This document shows, one piece after another, positions 7,504 to 17,805 of a stretch of DNA of 64,000 nucleotides. The notes beneath the pieces were generated by a model, which ran no database searches, was not told where the DNA came from, and worked only from the letters and a program-made list of their open reading frames with translations. A program made the position numbers and the translations under genes. How positions within the stretch are numbered: position 1 is the first letter of the stretch; every line of letters starts with the position of its first letter. The stretch covers positions 94,827-158,826 of the forward strand of contig OKRB01000078.1 of NCBI GenBank assembly GCA_900290245.1, in the 5' to 3' direction. The stretch is from Candidatus Sulfuritelmatomonas gaucii (lineage in GTDB: Bacteria; Acidobacteriota; Terriglobia; Terriglobales; Acidobacteriaceae).

Positions 7504-9957
7504 ATGTCTACTAAGCATGAAGTAGCCGTCGAGCTTGCTGGCGGCAAACGGCTGGTTTTCGAAACCGGACGTATGGCAAAGCAGGCTTCCGGCGCAGCGC
7601 TGGTGTCAACGGGCGAGACCGTTGTGCTGGCGACCGCAGTGGCTTCTCAAGAGGCCAGGGAAGGGATCGATTTCTTCCCCCTCACGGTGGATTACCGCGA
7701 ATACACCTATGCCGGCGGGCGCATTCCCGGCGGCTTTATCAAGCGCGAAGGACGGCCGAGCGAGAAGGAAATCCTGACCGCGCGCCAGATCGACCGGCCC
7801 ATCCGGCCGTTGTTCCCCGACGGATTCCGGAACGAGACGCAGGTGATTGCGCTGGTTTTTTCTGCGGACAAAGAAAATGATCCGGATGTCGTGGGAATTA
7901 ACGCCGCCGCTGCAGCAGTGGCGCTCTCCGACATTCCATTTGGCGCGACGGTGGCCGCGGTGCGCGTAGGGCGCGTGAACGGCGAGTTTGTGGTGAATCC
8001 CACTTACGCCGAGCGTGCGGCGACGACGGTAAACATCATGGTAGTCGGTCACAAAGACGGCATCGTGATGATCGAATCGGGCGCAAAGGAAGAGACGGAA
8101 GAGGTGGTGCTCGGCGCCATTGCATTTGCGCACGATGAGATCAAGAAGATCGTTGCCGCGATTGATGAGCTTGTAGCCAAGGCCGGAAAGCCAAAGCGTG
8201 CCTTTACGCCGCCTGAGTTCGACGAAGCCTATTACAACGATCTGAAAGCGAAGATCGGCGACCGGCTGAAGGACGCGCTCGATACCAAGACTCACGGCAA
8301 GATTGAGAGCTACGCTCTGATCGACGGGATCAAGAAAGAACTGGCTGCCGGACTGCCCGCCGAAGATCCTGAAGCGAAGAAGAAGCTCGGGCACTATTAC
8401 GAAATCTTGCGCGAGCGACTGTTCCGCGAGCAGGTGACGAAGGAGCGCATCCGGCCGGACCGCCGCGCATTCGACGAGATCCGTCCGATCAGCATCGAAA
8501 CCGGTGTGCTTCCGCGCACCCACGGTTCGGCGCTGTTTACGCGCGGCGAGACGCAGGCGCTTGTGACGGCAACGCTGGGCACCATGGACGACAGCCAGAG
8601 GCTGGAATCGTACGAGGGAGAGCAGAGGAAGGCCTTCATGCTCCACTACAACTTTCCGCCCTTCAGCGTTGGTGAAACAGGACGTATGACAGGCGTCGGT
8701 CGCCGCGAGGTGGGTCATGGGGCACTGGCTGAGCGGGCGATTTCCGCAATTCTGCCAGGCGCCGATGAGTCGCCGTACTCGATCCGCATCGTGAGCGACA
8801 TTCTGGAGTCGAACGGATCGTCCTCGATGGCATCGGTATGCGGGGCGAGCCTGGCGCTGTTTGACGCAGGCATCCAGATGAAAGGCGCGGTAGCTGGAGT
8901 GGCCATGGGCCTGGTGAAGGAAGGCGACGATTACGCCATCCTGACCGACATTGCCGGGGCCGAAGATCACTACGGCGATATGGATTTCAAAGTCGCCGGA
9001 ACGCGCAAGGGCATCACGGCTCTGCAGATGGACATCAAGATCGGCGGCCTGACGCGGGAAATCCTCGAACAGGCGATGGAGCAGGCGAGGCGCGGTCGGC
9101 TGTTCATCCTGGACAAGATGGATGCTGTGCTGGACGGCCCGCGCGTGGAGCGCTCGAAGTATGCGCCGCGCATCGAGACAGTGATGATTCCGACCGACAA
9201 GATCCGCGACCTGATCGGCAAGGGTGGAGCGACCATCCGCGGCATCGTGGAGCAGACGGGCGCAAAGATCGACGTGGACGACACGGGCAAAGTGAGCGTG
9301 GCGTCGAGCGATGCCGACGGGCTGAGGAAGGCGCTGGCGATCATCAGCGACCTGACCGCGGTTCCTGAGGTGGGCAAGACTTACCTGGGCAAGGTGGTGC
9401 GCATCGCGGAGTTCGGCGCCTTTGTGGAGTTGTTCCCGGGCACAGACGGCCTCCTGCATATCTCTGAGATCGCGGAACATCGCGTGAAGGAAGTCAAAGA
9501 CGAGCTGCGCGAAGGCGACCAGGTGATGGTGAAGGTTCTGGCCATCGAAGGCAATCGCATCAAGCTTAGCCGCAAGGCGTTGATCAAAGAGCAGAAGGCG
9601 AAACTGGCGCACTCCGCACCAGCGGAGACCGAATACAGCGAGGCTCCTCCAGCGCCACCGGTCGCGGCGCCTGTGCGGCCACGCCACGAATTCGATGAGC
9701 GCCAGCCGAGTTCCAATCAGAGCACCATCCTCATCGAAGGCGGCGAGGAGTTCGAGGGCGAGAACGGGGTCGAGTTCGATGAAGAGAATGAACCGAATTT
9801 CAACCGTGTCGATCGACCAGCCGTTCCCGCAGGCCAGCAATTCGGGGGAGGAGGGCGGCCCGGTGGAGGCGGAACTGGAAGCGGAGGCGGAGGCCGGCGC
9901 CGTCGGCGTCGTGGCGGAGGCGGCGGCGGGCGGGGGCCCGGTGGCGGACAACGATAG
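7504..9957 (+). CDS. pnp: Polyribonucleotide nucleotidyltransferase (PNPase) with Gly/Arg-rich C-terminal tail
   Basis: Two RNase PH-like domains, KH domain (IRDLIGKGGATIRGIVEQTGAKIDVDD), S1 domain (VGKTYLGKVVRIAEFGAFVELFPGTDGLLHISEIAE); conserved rpsO-pnp order. Confidence 0.98.
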   Translation: MSTKHEVAVELAGGKRLVFETGRMAKQASGAALVSTGETVVLATAVASQEAREGIDFFPLTVDYREYTYAGGRIPGGFIKREGRPSEKEILTARQIDRPIRPLFPDGFRNETQVIALVFSADKENDPDVVGINAAAAAVALSDIPFGATVAAVRVGRVNGEFVVNPTYAERAATTVNIMVVGHKDGIVMIESGAKEETEEVVLGAIAFAHDEIKKIVAAIDELVAKAGKPKRAFTPPEFDEAYYNDLKAKIGDRLKDALDTKTHGKIESYALIDGIKKELAAGLPAEDPEAKKKLGHYYEILRERLFREQVTKERIRPDRRAFDEIRPISIETGVLPRTHGSALFTRGETQALVTATLGTMDDSQRLESYEGEQRKAFMLHYNFPPFSVGETGRMTGVGRREVGHGALAERAISAILPGADESPYSIRIVSDILESNGSSSMASVCGASLALFDAGIQMKGAVAGVAMGLVKEGDDYAILTDIAGAEDHYGDMDFKVAGTRKGITALQMDIKIGGLTREILEQAMEQARRGRLFILDKMDAVLDGPRVERSKYAPRIETVMIPTDKIRDLIGKGGATIRGIVEQTGAKIDVDDTGKVSVASSDADGLRKALAIISDLTAVPEVGKTYLGKVVRIAEFGAFVELFPGTDGLLHISEIAEHRVKEVKDELREGDQVMVKVLAIEGNRIKLSRKALIKEQKAKLAHSAPAETEYSEAPPAPPVAAPVRPRHEFDERQPSSNQSTILIEGGEEFEGENGVEFDEENEPNFNRVDRPAVPAGQQFGGGGRPGGGGTGSGGGGRRRRRRGGGGGGRGPGGGQR

Positions 9958-9975
9958 CCGAAGGCGAAGCATAAA

Positions 9976-10010
9976 GAAGACCCGGACGGGATGTCCGGGT
10001 CTTCGTGTTT
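9976..10010 (+). terminator. Rho-independent terminator of rpsO-pnp
   Basis: 12-bp perfect stem gaagacccggac / gtccgggtcttc with gggat loop, followed by gtgttt. Confidence 0.8.
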
Positions 10011-10062
10011 CTAGCTAGGTTTTAGTGTAAGGTCGTCGGGCTTCTTGCGCCCTGGAATGCGG

Positions 10063-11400
10063 TTACTCCGCAGTCTGCAGGTTGGGCCGTCCTTTTCTGA
10101 CCGGATGAGGTGTCGGGAGGAACACGGGTTGAGATTGCTCTGCAACAATGACCTTGCCTGCATTCTTGCCCGCATACATACGAAGATCGGCCGCGATGCA
10201 AAGGGCTTCCGCGTTGGGAGCATCATCAGGGAAAACGGCGATTCCGACGCTGGCGCCGACGTGCACGCTATGCCCGTCTACTTCAAAGGGATTGTTGAGG
10301 AGATCGGTTAGCAGCTTTGCAACTCGCAGAGCATCCGCGCGGGTCATGGGCTCTTCCAGGATCACGGAAAACTCATCACCGCCAGTTCGTGCCACGGTGT
10401 CGGAGCGGCGTACCCGTCCTGTGAAAAGTTCGCCCACATGCTTGAGCAGTTCATCGCCGACATGATGGCCCACGGTGTCGTTCACTTGTTTGAAGTCGTC
10501 CAGGTCAACAAGCATCAGTGCCACTTGCGATCCGGTGCGGCGGGCGCGGGTCAGTGCGCTATTCAGGCGGTCCTGAAACAGGCGGCGATTGGGAAGACCG
10601 GTTAATTCGTCGTGCAGGGCCAGATACTTGGATTCTTCTATCTGGTTTTCGAGAAGCAGGAGGATCATACCCACAGCGACGACGTACTTGGGGAGGTTCC
10701 AAACCTCATTTTCAAGATGAAGGTTCGGGAAGGCTGTCTGGAACCAGGGACCTACGACAAAAACCGCGGCCCACGCAAAGAAGCCCGCAATGGTGATGAA
10801 GGCTCCCGCCGTGGCGCGCCGGTAAGCATACCAGAAGTGAATGGAGCAGCCGAGATAGACGGTAAAGAAGATGGCGTTCAATGCGAGCGCTGCTCCGTTA
10901 CCAGGCCGCCGCTCAACGATCAAAAGGAAGACGGAAAGAGAGCAGTAGAGGCCGACGATCCACCAGCGCAGCGGATGGGTGAATCCCGAGAGGGTAAGCA
11001 GAGCGATGGCCAGCGGCAGGGCGCCGAAGAGAATCGCTGCCGGCGCCAGGGCCCAGGATGCAACTGGATCGATGACCAGAAGACCCAAATAGAGAGTATT
11101 GGTGCCGAGCAGGACAAGAAGCATCCACCGGCTTGAGGTTCGCTGGCGAAATGGCACCGCAGCCCACATGAAAAGCACCCCGGCGCAAGCAAGCGTTGCA
11201 AGCCCAACAAAAGAGGCGATTTCAGTCCAGGGGCTGGGAGCCGGCAGAAAAAGAAATGCGGCAAAATGGAGCATGATCATGACCCAGCCAAGGAGCCAAA
11301 GGCCTGACAACGCACTTTGCCCGCGCCGCGCTACGGATGCGAATGCGGCGGTGAGGAAAGCGACGGCTGCTATGTCGGGAAGCTTGCTCCAATCAACCAA
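10063..11400 (-). CDS. Membrane-anchored diguanylate cyclase (GGDEF domain)
   Basis: Multiple N-terminal TM helices; GLPNRRLFQDRL ... RRSDTVARTGGDEFSVILEEP. Intact GGDEF signature and an RxxD I-site (RRSD) five residues before it. Confidence 0.93.
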   Translation of the reverse strand: MVDWSKLPDIAAVAFLTAAFASVARRGQSALSGLWLLGWVMIMLHFAAFLFLPAPSPWTEIASFVGLATLACAGVLFMWAAVPFRQRTSSRWMLLVLLGTNTLYLGLLVIDPVASWALAPAAILFGALPLAIALLTLSGFTHPLRWWIVGLYCSLSVFLLIVERRPGNGAALALNAIFFTVYLGCSIHFWYAYRRATAGAFITIAGFFAWAAVFVVGPWFQTAFPNLHLENEVWNLPKYVVAVGMILLLLENQIEESKYLALHDELTGLPNRRLFQDRLNSALTRARRTGSQVALMLVDLDDFKQVNDTVGHHVGDELLKHVGELFTGRVRRSDTVARTGGDEFSVILEEPMTRADALRVAKLLTDLLNNPFEVDGHSVHVGASVGIAVFPDDAPNAEALCIAADLRMYAGKNAGKVIVAEQSQPVFLPTPHPVRKGRPNLQTAE

Positions 11401-11900
11401 GGCGCACCTGAAGACTGCATTTCAAATATCAGAACGCTGCAATACGTGCTAAAGATAGGATCGGTTATTTTTGGAAAACTGCGATAGCGCTTTAGTTGAA
11501 TGCGCTTTAGCGCTAGATTACACCAAAGTAACTTAAAGATCTCGACGCACTATGTTAGTTGTCTGCGAATTTTGCGTGGTTCTCTTCTTGCTGGGGGAGA
11601 AAATTTAGAGCTTTCGAGAGAGTGGATGCGGTTTTGGGAGGAGAGGGTTGCCGGGCGGGGCATTAGGGCGGCGGATGCAGTCGCGTCGATCATGCGCCAT
11701 CGGCCATCTGGTTTTACGCACTCCACTTTTTCTGTACCGACCATCACAGGCCAGCGTTCACTTACCCACATTGGCACTCAGTTTCCCGCCGAACCCAATC
11801 ATGCAATCGCTTCTTCGTTTTTTTTCTCATGCCCATTGAGTTCCTTTTCGCTAAGCGGGAAGGTGGAGATGCGCGCGCTTTAGAAACTCCTAAGCGATGC

Positions 11901-11924: not shown

Positions 11925-11984
11925 TCCTCTTAAGGACATGCTGCCTCGGGCGTTGTGTGGGGCAGGCAAAAGAGAAAGGGACTC

Positions 11985-12737
11985 ATGAGATTGCTCATAG
12001 CCGAAGACGACAGGGCGCTCGGCCAGTTTTTGAGCCGCGGCCTGGAGGCCGACGGGCATAGGGTTCGTCTGGCATGTGATGGCGACGCCGCAGTGGAGGC
12101 CTTTCGGCAGGAGATGCCGGACTTGACGATTCTCGATCTAAATATGCCAGTGAAAGACGGCGAGCAGGTGCTGGTCGAACTGCGCGCGCTCGATGCCGAT
12201 CTGCCGGTCCTGGTGCTCACCGCGCGCCAGGAGGTGGACACACGGGTGCGCTGTCTCGATCGGGGAGCGGACGATCTGATGATCAAACCCTTCAGCCTGC
12301 ACGAGCTGCGTGCGCGCTGCAGGGCCCTGCTGAGGCGGAAGAGAGAGACGCGGCTTCAATTGCGCATCGCGGACCTGGAACTGGACCGGCTCGACCACAG
12401 CGCGCGGCGCGCCGGACGCAAGATCGATCTGACGAACAAGGAATTTGCCTTACTGGAGTTTCTGCTGCTGAACCGCGGCCAATGCGTTTCGCGGATTGAG
12501 CTGCTCGACTCGGTGTGGAACCTGGAGCCGGCGCAGACCACCAACATCGTGGATGTGTATGTGAACTATCTTCGGCGCAAGATTGCCGACCCGGCGCCGG
12601 GGCGCCTCATCCGCACCGTGCGCGGACGGGGATACATCGTTCCATTGGAGAGCGAACTGAATCTGAACGCGCCCAACGGTGTGGTGGCAATGCATTCAGA
12701 GGAAGTCAGCGCGGGCGCGGCGGTCGCCGCAAATTAG
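11985..12737 (+). CDS. OmpR/PhoB-family response regulator
   Basis: Receiver MRLLIAEDDRALGQFLSRGLEADGHRVRLACDGDAAVEAF...LTILDLNMPVKDGE...LTAR...KPF plus winged-helix DNA-binding domain (VDVYVNYLRRKI...LIRTVRGRGYIV). Confidence 0.92.
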   Translation: MRLLIAEDDRALGQFLSRGLEADGHRVRLACDGDAAVEAFRQEMPDLTILDLNMPVKDGEQVLVELRALDADLPVLVLTARQEVDTRVRCLDRGADDLMIKPFSLHELRARCRALLRRKRETRLQLRIADLELDRLDHSARRAGRKIDLTNKEFALLEFLLLNRGQCVSRIELLDSVWNLEPAQTTNIVDVYVNYLRRKIADPAPGRLIRTVRGRGYIVPLESELNLNAPNGVVAMHSEEVSAGAAVAAN

Positions 12738-12779: not shown

Positions 12780-13291
12780 ATGCAGGCGTTCCCGGTTCCA
12801 GTTCTTCCATCGCATCCACGCATGAAGCCGCGCACTGCGCTCGTGGCCAGCGCCGACCGCAGCTTTCGGCAACGGCTTACCCACGTTCTTTGCGGTTTGC
12901 GCTGGCAGGTTCGCGAGGCCGAAGGCGGTGCGCAGGCATGGGCCGAGGCCGAAGCGGCCGTTCCCGAGGCGATGATCCTCGATGCGTGGCTGCCGGATCT
13001 TGAGCTGAACGAGTTTGTGCGCGACTTCCGGGGAAGCTTTCCCGGCGTGGATCTGGTGACCGCAGCGGGATCAGGCGCCGAGGACGGCTCACGCGGGCCG
13101 CACCGGCAGGAGCTGCTTTATGCGTTGCGCCAGTCGCAGGAAGTCGATACGGCCGCATGGGACGCGACTCCGGCCTCTGCCCCCACGTGCGCATCGCCTG
13201 CGTCGCCCAAGGAGGGCCTACGGTCGGAATTTCGCTCTCCAGCTGCGGCGATTACCGCGCCGAAAGAAGCGTTATCCCTTCTCCGCACCGA
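12780..13291 (+). pseudogene. N-terminal remnant of a receiver-domain regulator (possibly the sigma-54-dependent activator of a flagellar cluster), truncated
   Basis: MKPRTALVASADRSFRQRLTHVLCGLRWQVREAEGGAQAWAEAEAAVPEAMILDAWLPDLEL is receiver-like; no output domain follows. ORF continues into unrelated frame over flgE-like sequence and stops at 13409. Confidence 0.6.
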
Positions 13292-13663
13292 AGCGGATAT
13301 GCCAGCGGTCAGTATTCAAGTTTCGCGATCGGCTCCGACGGGACGGTCACGATTACTTATTCGAATGGACAGAAGCAGAATGTGGGTCAATTGGCGCTCG
13401 GCAATGTGACCAATCTCCAGGGCCTGGAATTGATGGGCAACGGAAACTATACAACTACGCGGGCGAGCGGGCCGATCTCGTTCGGGGCCTCGGGCACGTC
13501 AGGCCTGGCGACTTTGCAGGACGATGCGCTGGAGGCATCGAACGTGAACATCTCGACGGAGTTTTCCGATCTGATCATTGCGCAGAGAGCGTTCGAGGCG
13601 AATGCCAAGTCGGTGGCCACATTCGACACGGTTACGCAGGACACGATCAACATGGTGCACTAA
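13292..13663 (+). pseudogene. flgE: C-terminal fragment of flagellar hook protein FlgE
   Basis: Frame +2 reads SGYASGQYSSFAIGSDGTVTITYSNGQKQNVGQLALGNVTNLQGLELMGNGNYTTTRASG...GLATLQDDALEASNVNISTEFSDLIIAQRAFEANAKSVATFDTVTQDTINMVH*, the canonical FlgE C-terminus, with no FlgE N-terminus upstream. Confidence 0.85.
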
Positions 13664-13676
13664 ATCGTGCACTGAG

Positions 13677-14159
13677 CTAGGTTGCGTTTCCCGCAGCGGG
13701 GCGGTCTTCGGGCCGTCCATGCTTTCTTGACTCCGTCGGCACTTCGATGAAGAGTCCTTTGGCATGGGCCAGCAGCTTGTCTTCCGCATTCAGAATGCGG
13801 GCTTCGACCCAGACCTTGCGCTCCTCGGCACGAAGGATTCGGCCCTCAATGCGGAGGGGAGCGCCGCTGGGAACCGGGCGGAGATACTCGATCTCCATCT
13901 TGCGCGTCATCGATCGCCTGCCCGTTGTACGCACTGCTTTGCTCATGGCTTCATCCAGCAGCGTGGCAATAATTCCGCCATGCAGGTAGCCGGGATGGCC
14001 TTCAAAAGTATCGGCGACGACAGGCAGGCTCACGACCGACCCATCGGGCGCAAGAAAGAACTCGAGGTGGAGACCGGTTGGGTTGGCAGGGCCGCAGCCG
14101 AAGCAGCGGTTGCTGGCTGCGTGGGCAAAGGGAGTGAGATGTTCTTCGTGTCGAGTCAT
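13677..14159 (-). CDS. PaaI-family (hotdog) thioesterase
   Basis: CFGCGPANPTGLHLEFFLAPDG...GHPGYLHGGIIATLLDEAMSKAV hotdog signature. Confidence 0.85.
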   Translation of the reverse strand: MTRHEEHLTPFAHAASNRCFGCGPANPTGLHLEFFLAPDGSVVSLPVVADTFEGHPGYLHGGIIATLLDEAMSKAVRTTGRRSMTRKMEIEYLRPVPSGAPLRIEGRILRAEERKVWVEARILNAEDKLLAHAKGLFIEVPTESRKHGRPEDRPAAGNAT

Positions 14160-15160
14160 GCCGGCCTCACGGATGAAAAAGAGCCATCGAGCGCAGCGAG
14201 AAACATTTCGCGGTCGACATTTCCGCCAGTTAGAAGGATGCCGACGCGTTTGCCGCGCAGCGCACCTTTCTCCTTGAGCGCCGCGGCCAGCGCGGCCGCA
14301 CCGGCACCCTCGGCGATGTTGTGGGTGTCCTCGTAGTAAATGCGCATCGCAACGGCAATTTCGCTCTCAGAGATTTCGACAATACGGGCGACATGATTCC
14401 AGATGATTTTAAGTGCCTCAGGGCTCGGCCTGCGGCATGCCAGGCCGTCTGCAATGACCGACTGAGCCGGCGCCTCGGTGAGCCTGCGCTCCCTGAAGCT
14501 GATAGCGCTGGCAGGCGATGCAGCGGCTGTGACGCCCACGATCTCGGTGGAGAGATGCAGAGCGTCGCGCGCTGCGGCCATTCCGCAGATCGATGAGCCC
14601 ATGCCGATTGGAGCATAGACGATATCGAGGTTGGGCGCGCCCACAAACAGCTCGAGCGCGCAGGTGGCTGTGCCCCACACCAAGCGCTCGTGAAACGATT
14701 CGAACATGACGAAGCCGCGCTTCTGGGCCAGGGCCCGCGCAAATTCGAGAGAATCCTGGAAATCCGGTCCATGCTCGACCAGTTCCACGCACTGAGCCAG
14801 CATGCCGCGGTTCTTCTCGGCGCTGTTGCCATGAGGCACGACGATGACAGCCTTCATTCCCAGAAGGCGCGCGGCCATGCCGCCGCCCAGGCCGAAGTTG
14901 CCGCGCGTCGCCGCCACCACGCCGGCCAAATCAGGATGCGTTTGCTTCAGCCACGATGCATAGACAAGTGCTCCGCGCAATTTGAATGCACCCACCGGCG
15001 TGTGGTTTTCATGCTTGATCCACGCCTCAGTTTCCAGTCGCTGGTTAATCAGCGGCCAACTGTATTGCGGCGTGGCCGGCATATAGCAATAGATCAGGTC
15101 CTGCGCGGAGCGGATTTGATCGAGCGATGGAAGCGCCATGAAACCAGCATACCGGCTCAC
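14156..15160 (-). CDS. PLP-dependent threonine/serine dehydratase family protein
   Basis: IKHENHTPVGAFKLRGA (PLP lysine), ATRGNFGLGGGMAARLLG, GAGAAALAAAL; 4-bp overlap with downstream thioesterase. Confidence 0.85.
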   Translation of the reverse strand: MSRYAGFMALPSLDQIRSAQDLIYCYMPATPQYSWPLINQRLETEAWIKHENHTPVGAFKLRGALVYASWLKQTHPDLAGVVAATRGNFGLGGGMAARLLGMKAVIVVPHGNSAEKNRGMLAQCVELVEHGPDFQDSLEFARALAQKRGFVMFESFHERLVWGTATCALELFVGAPNLDIVYAPIGMGSSICGMAAARDALHLSTEIVGVTAAASPASAISFRERRLTEAPAQSVIADGLACRRPSPEALKIIWNHVARIVEISESEIAVAMRIYYEDTHNIAEGAGAAALAAALKEKGALRGKRVGILLTGGNVDREMFLAALDGSFSSVRPA

Positions 15161-15754: not shown

Positions 15755-16396
15755 ATGAAGATCGGAGTTCTCGGTTCGGGCGACGTAGCCCAGACACTCG
15801 CAGCCGGGTTGATCAAGCATGGCCACCAGGTCATGCTCGGGACGCGCGACGCTGCAAAGCTGGAAAAGTGGCGCGGGGCGAATCCGAAGGCGCAGATCGG
15901 CTCCACAAAAGACGCGGCGGCGTTTGGCGAAGCCGTGGTGCTGGCCGTTAAAGGATCGGCTGCGGCCGACGTATTGCGCGCTGCGGGCGCCGGCAACCTG
16001 GACGGCAAACTGGTGATGGATGCTTGCAACCCAATCGCCGATGCGCCGCCCGTCAATGGCGTTCTCAGGTTCTTCACCACGCTGGAGGAATCGCTGATGG
16101 ACCGGCTCCAGCGCGAATTCCCCAAGGCGCACCTGGTGAAGGTGTTTAGCTCTGTCGGAGCTCCACGAATGGTGAATCCCCAGTTCAAGAGTGGCAAGCC
16201 GACCATGTTTATCTGCGGCAACGATGACGGCGCAAAGGCCGAAGTTGCGCAGATCCTGGAGCAGTTCGGCTGGGAAGTTGCCGACATGGGAAAAGTGGAA
16301 GCGGCGCGCGCCATTGAGCCTCTGTGCATCTTGTGGTGCATTCTCGGATTCACGAAAAATGAATGGACGCACGCCTTCAAATTGCTCCACGAGTAG
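15755..16396 (+). CDS. NADPH-dependent F420 reductase-like / dinucleotide-binding protein
   Basis: MKIGVLGSGDVAQTLAAGLIKHGHQVMLGTRD Rossmann fold; VLRFFTTLEESLMDRLQREFPKAHLVKVFSSVG. Confidence 0.8.
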   Translation: MKIGVLGSGDVAQTLAAGLIKHGHQVMLGTRDAAKLEKWRGANPKAQIGSTKDAAAFGEAVVLAVKGSAAADVLRAAGAGNLDGKLVMDACNPIADAPPVNGVLRFFTTLEESLMDRLQREFPKAHLVKVFSSVGAPRMVNPQFKSGKPTMFICGNDDGAKAEVAQILEQFGWEVADMGKVEAARAIEPLCILWCILGFTKNEWTHAFKLLHE

Positions 16397-16485
16397 CCGC
16401 GCGCCAGGCGCGCTGGAATTCAAGCACGATGCGCGCGTTTAGGCTTAGAGCGGCCGAAAAAGCATTCGCCGTATACTGGGGGTCT

Positions 16486-17805
16486 ATGGCAACCGACAAA
16501 ACATTTTATTTAGAAACCTTCGGCTGCCAGATGAACGCCCATGACTCCGAAAAGGTCATCGGCACGCTCGAGCAGCAGGGCTACCGGCAGGTGGAGTCGG
16601 AAGAAGAAGCGGGCCTCATCCTCTACAACACATGCTCGATCCGCGACAAGGCGGAACAGAAGGTCTTCAATCGCCTGAACGACTACAAGAAGCTGCACAA
16701 GCAAGGGAAGCGCTTCGGCGTTCTCGGCTGCGTGGCGCAGCAGGAAGGCGAGAAGATCTTCGAGCGCGCGCCGTATGTGTCTCTCGTCTCGGGGTCGGCA
16801 TCATACCGGAAATTGCCGGAGATGCTGACGCGGTTGGAAGCAGGCGAAGGACGCATCACCGGGCTCGATGACCGGCAGACAGATGAGACCTTCGAAACCG
16901 AGTTCACGGCGCGGCAGAATCAGTACCGCGGATACATCACGATCATTGAAGGTTGCGACAAGTTCTGCTCCTATTGCGTGGTGCCATACACGCGTGGCAA
17001 GGAGCGCAGCAGGACTTCGACATCCGTTCTGCATGAAGCGAGGCGCATTGCCGACCTGGGCTACACCGAGATTCAGTTGCTGGGCCAGAACGTGAACAGC
17101 TACCGCGATCCGGAAGGGAAGATGAGCTTCGCGGAGTTGCTGGCGGCGGTGGGTGAGGTGGCCGGCATCCGGCGTGTGCGCTTCACGACCAGCCACCCGC
17201 GCGATTTTACGCGCGACATTGTGGACGCGATTGACCGCGTCCCCACGCTGTGCGATCACGTGCATTTGCCGGTGCAATCGGGTTCGGCGCGGATCCTGAA
17301 AGCGATGGCGCGCGAGTACTCGCCGGAGTGGTATCTGGAGCGGGTGGCGTGGATCAAAGCATCGCGGCGGCAGATCTCGATTTCGACCGATATCATTGTT
17401 GGATTTCCCGGAGAAACCGAGGACGATTTTATCCAGACGATGGACCTGCTGGCCGAAGTCGAATACGATTGCGTTTTCGCATTCAAGTACTCCGCGCGGC
17501 CCAATACGCCTGCACTGGTGATGATCGATTCCATACCCGAAGCGGAAACGGCGAAACGCTTGCAGGCATTGCTCGACCGCCAGCGAGAGATTCAAAGAGT
17601 GAATTATTCGAAACAGATCGGTGAGATCATTGAGGTAATGGTGGAGGGGACGAATCCCGCGCGCGGGCAGATCGCGGGAAGGAGCAGCCAGAACAAGCCC
17701 GTCAACTTTACGAGCCCGCATCCCATCGCGCCGGCGCCGGGAAGTTACTTGCGGGTGATGATTACGGGAGCTTATCCAAACAGCCTGGTCGGTGAGAGTG
17801 TATAA
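16486..17805 (+). CDS. miaB: tRNA-2-methylthio-N6-dimethylallyladenosine synthase
   Basis: FYLETFGCQMNAHDSEKV, radical-SAM GCDKFCSYCVVPYTRGKERSR, LLGQNVNSY, TRAM domain. Confidence 0.96.
   Translation: MATDKTFYLETFGCQMNAHDSEKVIGTLEQQGYRQVESEEEAGLILYNTCSIRDKAEQKVFNRLNDYKKLHKQGKRFGVLGCVAQQEGEKIFERAPYVSLVSGSASYRKLPEMLTRLEAGEGRITGLDDRQTDETFETEFTARQNQYRGYITIIEGCDKFCSYCVVPYTRGKERSRTSTSVLHEARRIADLGYTEIQLLGQNVNSYRDPEGKMSFAELLAAVGEVAGIRRVRFTTSHPRDFTRDIVDAIDRVPTLCDHVHLPVQSGSARILKAMAREYSPEWYLERVAWIKASRRQISISTDIIVGFPGETEDDFIQTMDLLAEVEYDCVFAFKYSARPNTPALVMIDSIPEAETAKRLQALLDRQREIQRVNYSKQIGEIIEVMVEGTNPARGQIAGRSSQNKPVNFTSPHPIAPAPGSYLRVMITGAYPNSLVGESV

Follow-up and report, generated by a model that had tools for sequence, protein, structure and literature searches.

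Loss of flagella through gene deletion and decay occurs in non-motile lineages, for example Shigella. Two described protein families lie closest to the locus presented here: the flagellar sigma-54 activators of the NtrC/FlgR/FlbD class and the hook protein FlgE (PF06429; NCBIfam FlgE). In congeners of Candidatus Sulfuritelmatomonas gaucii, an activator homolog likewise combines a receiver-like N-terminus with a sigma-54 AAA+ domain and stands directly before flgB, but, unlike that class, it has no C-terminal DNA-binding domain that could be matched by profile search. The 64,000-nucleotide stretch of DNA analysed here (the window) carries a copy that keeps just the receiver-like part and some linker. 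It is followed by a C-terminal piece of ~123 residues that matches FlgE best, with FlgG behind, and that differs from the hook protein in lacking its initial ~340 residues, among them the N-terminal D0/D1 part. We conclude with high confidence that the window locus is a scar left where an ancestral flagellar operon was deleted.

Two edges of an operon in the window

The upstream remnant is the 5' part of a sigma-54 activator gene (12780..13175, plus strand), comprising the receiver-like domain and the start of the linker, with the AAA+ domain deleted. The first ~134-161 residues of the frame-0 open reading frame from 12780 match congener ORFs, mostly of 435-492 aa, at 49-75% identity (E down to 8e-65); identity to a 468-aa congener ORF is 75%, and DNA homology stops at 13163-13175. 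A sequence-only reading had described this ORF as a receiver-like regulator without an output domain and guessed at a sigma-54 type, and the comparison bears it out. Only the activator N-terminus is matched, the AAA+ sigma-54 interaction domain present in intact homologs is absent from the remnant in a profile search, and the intact homolog carries a full Sigma54_activat domain (PF00158, 222 bits). The match of the remnant to the receiver profile PF00072 is weak (18.8 bits, under the cut-off), and that of the intact homolog is about as weak. The intact activator (L065 2690-3994 and homologs) stops directly behind the AAA lid, AAA_lid_14 reaching residue 432 of 434. Upstream of the remnant lies an intact OmpR-type response regulator (11955..12737, plus strand; Response_reg 88 bits and Trans_reg_C 88.7 bits in Pfam), 66-92% identical to same-position homologs in most mapped congeners, where it also adjoins the activator upstream; the two regulators may work together.

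The downstream remnant is the 3' end of flgE (13292..13663, plus strand, frame +2), consisting of the last ~123 codons and the native stop at 13661-13663. The same sequence-only reading had assigned it to the FlgE C-terminus, and profile and protein matches agree: 50.6 bits to Flg_bbr_C (PF06429), E 2e-21 to residues 272-401 of FlgE in the PDB, and up to 79% identity to intact congener FlgE, whose open frames are mostly ~430-690 aa. A complete FlgE has N-terminal rod, D2 and C-terminal domains; in the window piece only Flg_bbr_C matches convincingly. As the two remnants lie in different frames, no hybrid protein is made. Between them, the junction zone (13176..13293, plus strand) is probably activator linker as far as a break at ~13288-13294. 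In DNA alignments to relatives the activator homology ends at ~13175 and the flgE homology begins at 13294; the intervening ~118 bp fall in the hypervariable activator linker, which is unalignable between species and places the exact break base, and any microhomology there, beyond resolution. The exact junction sequence had no match among the genome contigs searched, a set that possibly excludes host records, and this weighs neither way.

What stood between the two edges? The congener G023 has, in this order, an OmpR-type regulator, the sigma-54 activator, flgB, flgC, fliE, fliF, fliG, fliH, fliI, fliJ, a fliK-like gene, flgD and flgE, the flagellar names being assigned by homology and gene order. 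An opposite-strand 4HBT thioesterase and a threonine-dehydratase-like gene follow 3' of flgE, with cytochrome c and miaB beyond them. G011, G016, G022, G018, G015, G002, G008, G003 and G059 and many named Acidobacteriaceae MAGs share this operon order, and in at least 10 congeners the activator homolog precedes an intact operon starting at flgB. Wherever congener contigs are sufficiently long, the operon ends in flgE with both flanks as in the window. The window flanks are colinear with these undeleted relatives, from the OmpR-type regulator upstream to the thioesterase, dehydratase, cytochrome and miaB downstream. The intact thioesterase (13677..14159, minus strand; Pfam 4HBT 53.6 bits) is 73% identical to the gene directly 3' of flgE in G023, the threonine-dehydratase-like gene (14156..15160, minus strand) is 74% identical and in the same order as there, and miaB, the conserved outer flank (16363..17805, plus strand), is 94% identical over the compared stretch, in an order shared by congeners. 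Homologs of the two pieces thus bracket, in unchanged order and orientation, an intact flgB-flgE operon in congeners with the same flanks, the synteny by which the sequence-only reading had proposed to check itself. Its claim of no other flagellar gene in the window also stands: comparison with flagellar reference proteins added only matches of the OmpR receiver to cheY and of the flgE fragment to flgG.

Alignment offsets put the DNA missing in the host between both edges at 11.5-12.2 kb. We propose that the ancestor carried the same gene series at this site, fliK included, and that one illegitimate-recombination event joined the activator linker (~codon 135-168) to flgE (~codon 345 of ~468), taking out about that length.

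Further scars in the host genome and their age

The host is a soil acidobacterium; its genome (G000) is a draft assembly of 162 contigs, 93.8% complete, and its junctions are known at assembly level. When a 12.7-kb block from a relative was compared with it, only the two edges were recovered, besides unrelated AAA+ and low-complexity matches. No match was found in the host for FlgB, FlgC, FliF, FliG, FliM, FlgI or the FlhA C-terminus at E 1e-8, nor for FliG at E 0.001; FliA gave a distant sigma-factor match only and FlgM none. There is no full-length flgE elsewhere in the assembly, as the single-deletion proposal demands, and the sole other FlgE-like match is FlgG.

A second flagellar block, which in G023 runs fliN, fliP, fliQ, fliR, flhB, flhA, fliA, fliM, cheY, flgF, flgG, flgA, flgH, flgI, flgJ, flgM, flgN, flgK, flgL, lies on host contig C29 and carries two further scars (8631-9314 and 9895-11516), with ~13 kb lost together. 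At the latter, the first ~349 flhA codons are joined to flgG codon ~74 (~8 kb lost); at the former, flgH is joined in frame to the flgL C-terminus, giving a 227-aa ORF (~5 kb lost). The notion of one large internal deletion therefore holds for the window locus, given its synteny and the absence of the block, but not for the genome. Still open in the host are fliN, fliP, fliQ, fliR, flhB and flgA, and elsewhere fliS, fliD and two flagellins. With the genes for MS-ring, switch, rod, hook, P-ring and sigma-28 removed, this gene set could not yield a flagellum, and a functional one in the host appears implausible.

None of the host remnants contains a stop or a frameshift. Their pN/pS values resemble those of intact genes: 0.243 for the flgE tail (0.269 for intact pairs), 0.093 for the flhA N-terminal remnant (0.108-0.114 intact), 0.109 for the flgG C-terminal remnant (0.110-0.128 intact) and 0.323 for the receiver remnant (0.248-0.388 in intact homologs). 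The absence of decay together with normal pN/pS suggests that the deletions are recent, which here means only recent compared with species divergence, as synonymous sites near saturation bar finer dating. The open frame of the receiver remnant and a pN/pS inside the intact range could also be expected if the truncated receiver had been retained as a functional stand-alone regulator, with the flgE tail as a chance passenger. We regard this as very unlikely. The flgE tail, flhA and flgG remnants are equally undecayed though unable to work, so that the lack of decay in the receiver reflects recency and its normal pN/pS is no evidence for retention; moreover, intact homologs themselves score weakly for a receiver domain.

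In a draft assembly, undecayed remnants also raise the question of whether an assembler or amplification chimera linked points 12 kb apart in an operon that is actually present, and three undecayed scars are many for one genome. However, all three lie inside flagellar blocks with intact neighbouring genes, and no other contig carries what was removed. The resolvable junctions share just ~2-4 bases (flgH/flgL, and the GTGG of a fusion in the relative G053 described below), which leaves no long repeat to cause assembly collapse. In further assemblies from the genus the block has been deleted independently, in some cases leaving remnants that have decayed. An artefact of assembly or binning is extremely improbable. 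A deletion present in part of the sampled population, from which the assembler picked the deleted allele, would fit undecayed remnants too. Such a mixture of strains is hard to credit, as a flagellated allele usually leaves its own flgB-flgD contigs, none of which was found, and two other blocks are deleted as well. Under the deletion reading that we favour, the short shared stretches would fit illegitimate recombination or replication slippage. The deletions probably arose by microhomology-mediated recombination or such slippage, and may have accumulated after motility became unneeded or costly.

Losses and retained regulators in relatives

Of the 32 good-quality genomes of the genus, 5 lack FliG: the host, G004, G013, G049 and G053. 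In G053 the activator, residues 1 to ~325, is fused in frame to FlgE from ~105 in a 694-aa ORF, with four bases, GTGG, common to both sides; a fliQ/flgN join is also present. The fusion ORF (L186 4546-6630, minus strand) joins the receiver and part of the AAA+ domain to FlgE D1, D2 and C-terminal parts and is undecayed. The FlgK of the same genome (L187 4365-6263; 632 aa) contains a ~150-residue insert resembling the FlgE D2 region that is absent from the 496-aa FlgK of G023. G004, G010 and G067 have the activator, whole or to the contig edge, and then a flgE tail of ~25-30 codons, which is decayed in G004; G010 also has an flhA relic full of stops. The activator also persists in G013 and G049, and no flgE was seen in either. 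There is no sign of a programmed regulator-hook fusion gene, with one conserved frame across the junction in several relatives: the host pieces are out of frame, and the join is in frame in G053 only, at break points unlike those of the host. A second FliG, with 46-49% identity, occurs in G008, G014, G047, G052, G055, G056 and G070, which suggests a second flagellar system in these seven congeners.

A tree built from PNPase groups G004, G010 and G067 in a single clade (100), pairs G013 with G053 as sisters (100) and places the flagellated G057 and G059 between G013/G053 and the host with moderate support (82-88). A single ancestral deletion shared by the host, G053 and G013 was considered and rejected on several counts: G013 has the whole activator without flgE, the parts retained in G053 are the activator up to ~325 and flgE from ~105 on, the second-block genes retained by the host differ from those of G053, and G057 and G059 intervene on the tree at the support given. 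The break points of G013 and G053 are mutually incompatible, as are the second-block remnants of the host and G053. Together with the tree positions, these incompatibilities give a minimum of five independent losses of the flgB-flgE block, with differing end points, in the sampled congeners, the host included. The host is thus not an isolated case. The literature searched contained no account of flagellar loss in the genus.

Regulators have in part remained where the structural genes are gone. FliA (sigma-28) persists with an FlgM-like stretch in G004 (L195 4866-5723), G013 (L190 6528-7781) and G010 (L196 4281-5138). It is intact in all three, with pN/pS of 0.119-0.169 versus 0.127-0.150 in flagellated relatives; for the AAA+ domain of the activator in G004, G013 and G049 the values are 0.159-0.176 versus 0.151-0.192. 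Constrained FliA and activator in aflagellate relatives would point to a non-flagellar role. Normal constraint on kept regulators could equally mean recent loss, but the losses in G004 and G010 are argued to be older, given the decayed flgE tail of the one and the stop-ridden flhA relic of the other.

Implications and comparison with known losses

What do these observations imply for the genus as a whole? We tentatively propose, as a possibility that falls somewhat short of an even chance, that it repeatedly and recently dismantles its flagella through small-homology internal deletions, several of them in each genome. The older aflagellate lineages (G013; G004/G010/G067) would then have kept the sigma-54 activator under purifying selection after losing the structural genes, and G004, G010 and G013 would have kept FliA with its FlgM-like stretch as well. 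If this is true, a second, non-flagellar regulon is under the control of these 'flagellar' regulators. The genus offers a natural replicate set for the dismantling of a large machine, in which one can follow how the steps succeed one another, which in-frame fusions arise as by-products and which regulators are retained.

The process itself is known, being ordinary gene loss by illegitimate recombination; its preservation and replication are unusual. Gene loss is usually met only once the edges have decayed, whereas here three break points in one genome are closely readable, and readable break points also remain in the relatives that lost this block independently. As in flagellar loss of the Shigella type, structural genes have been deleted and remnants stand at the edges. 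In contrast to that case, the edges in the host are undecayed, three separate scars lie within one genome, and the same block has been lost independently several times inside one genus.
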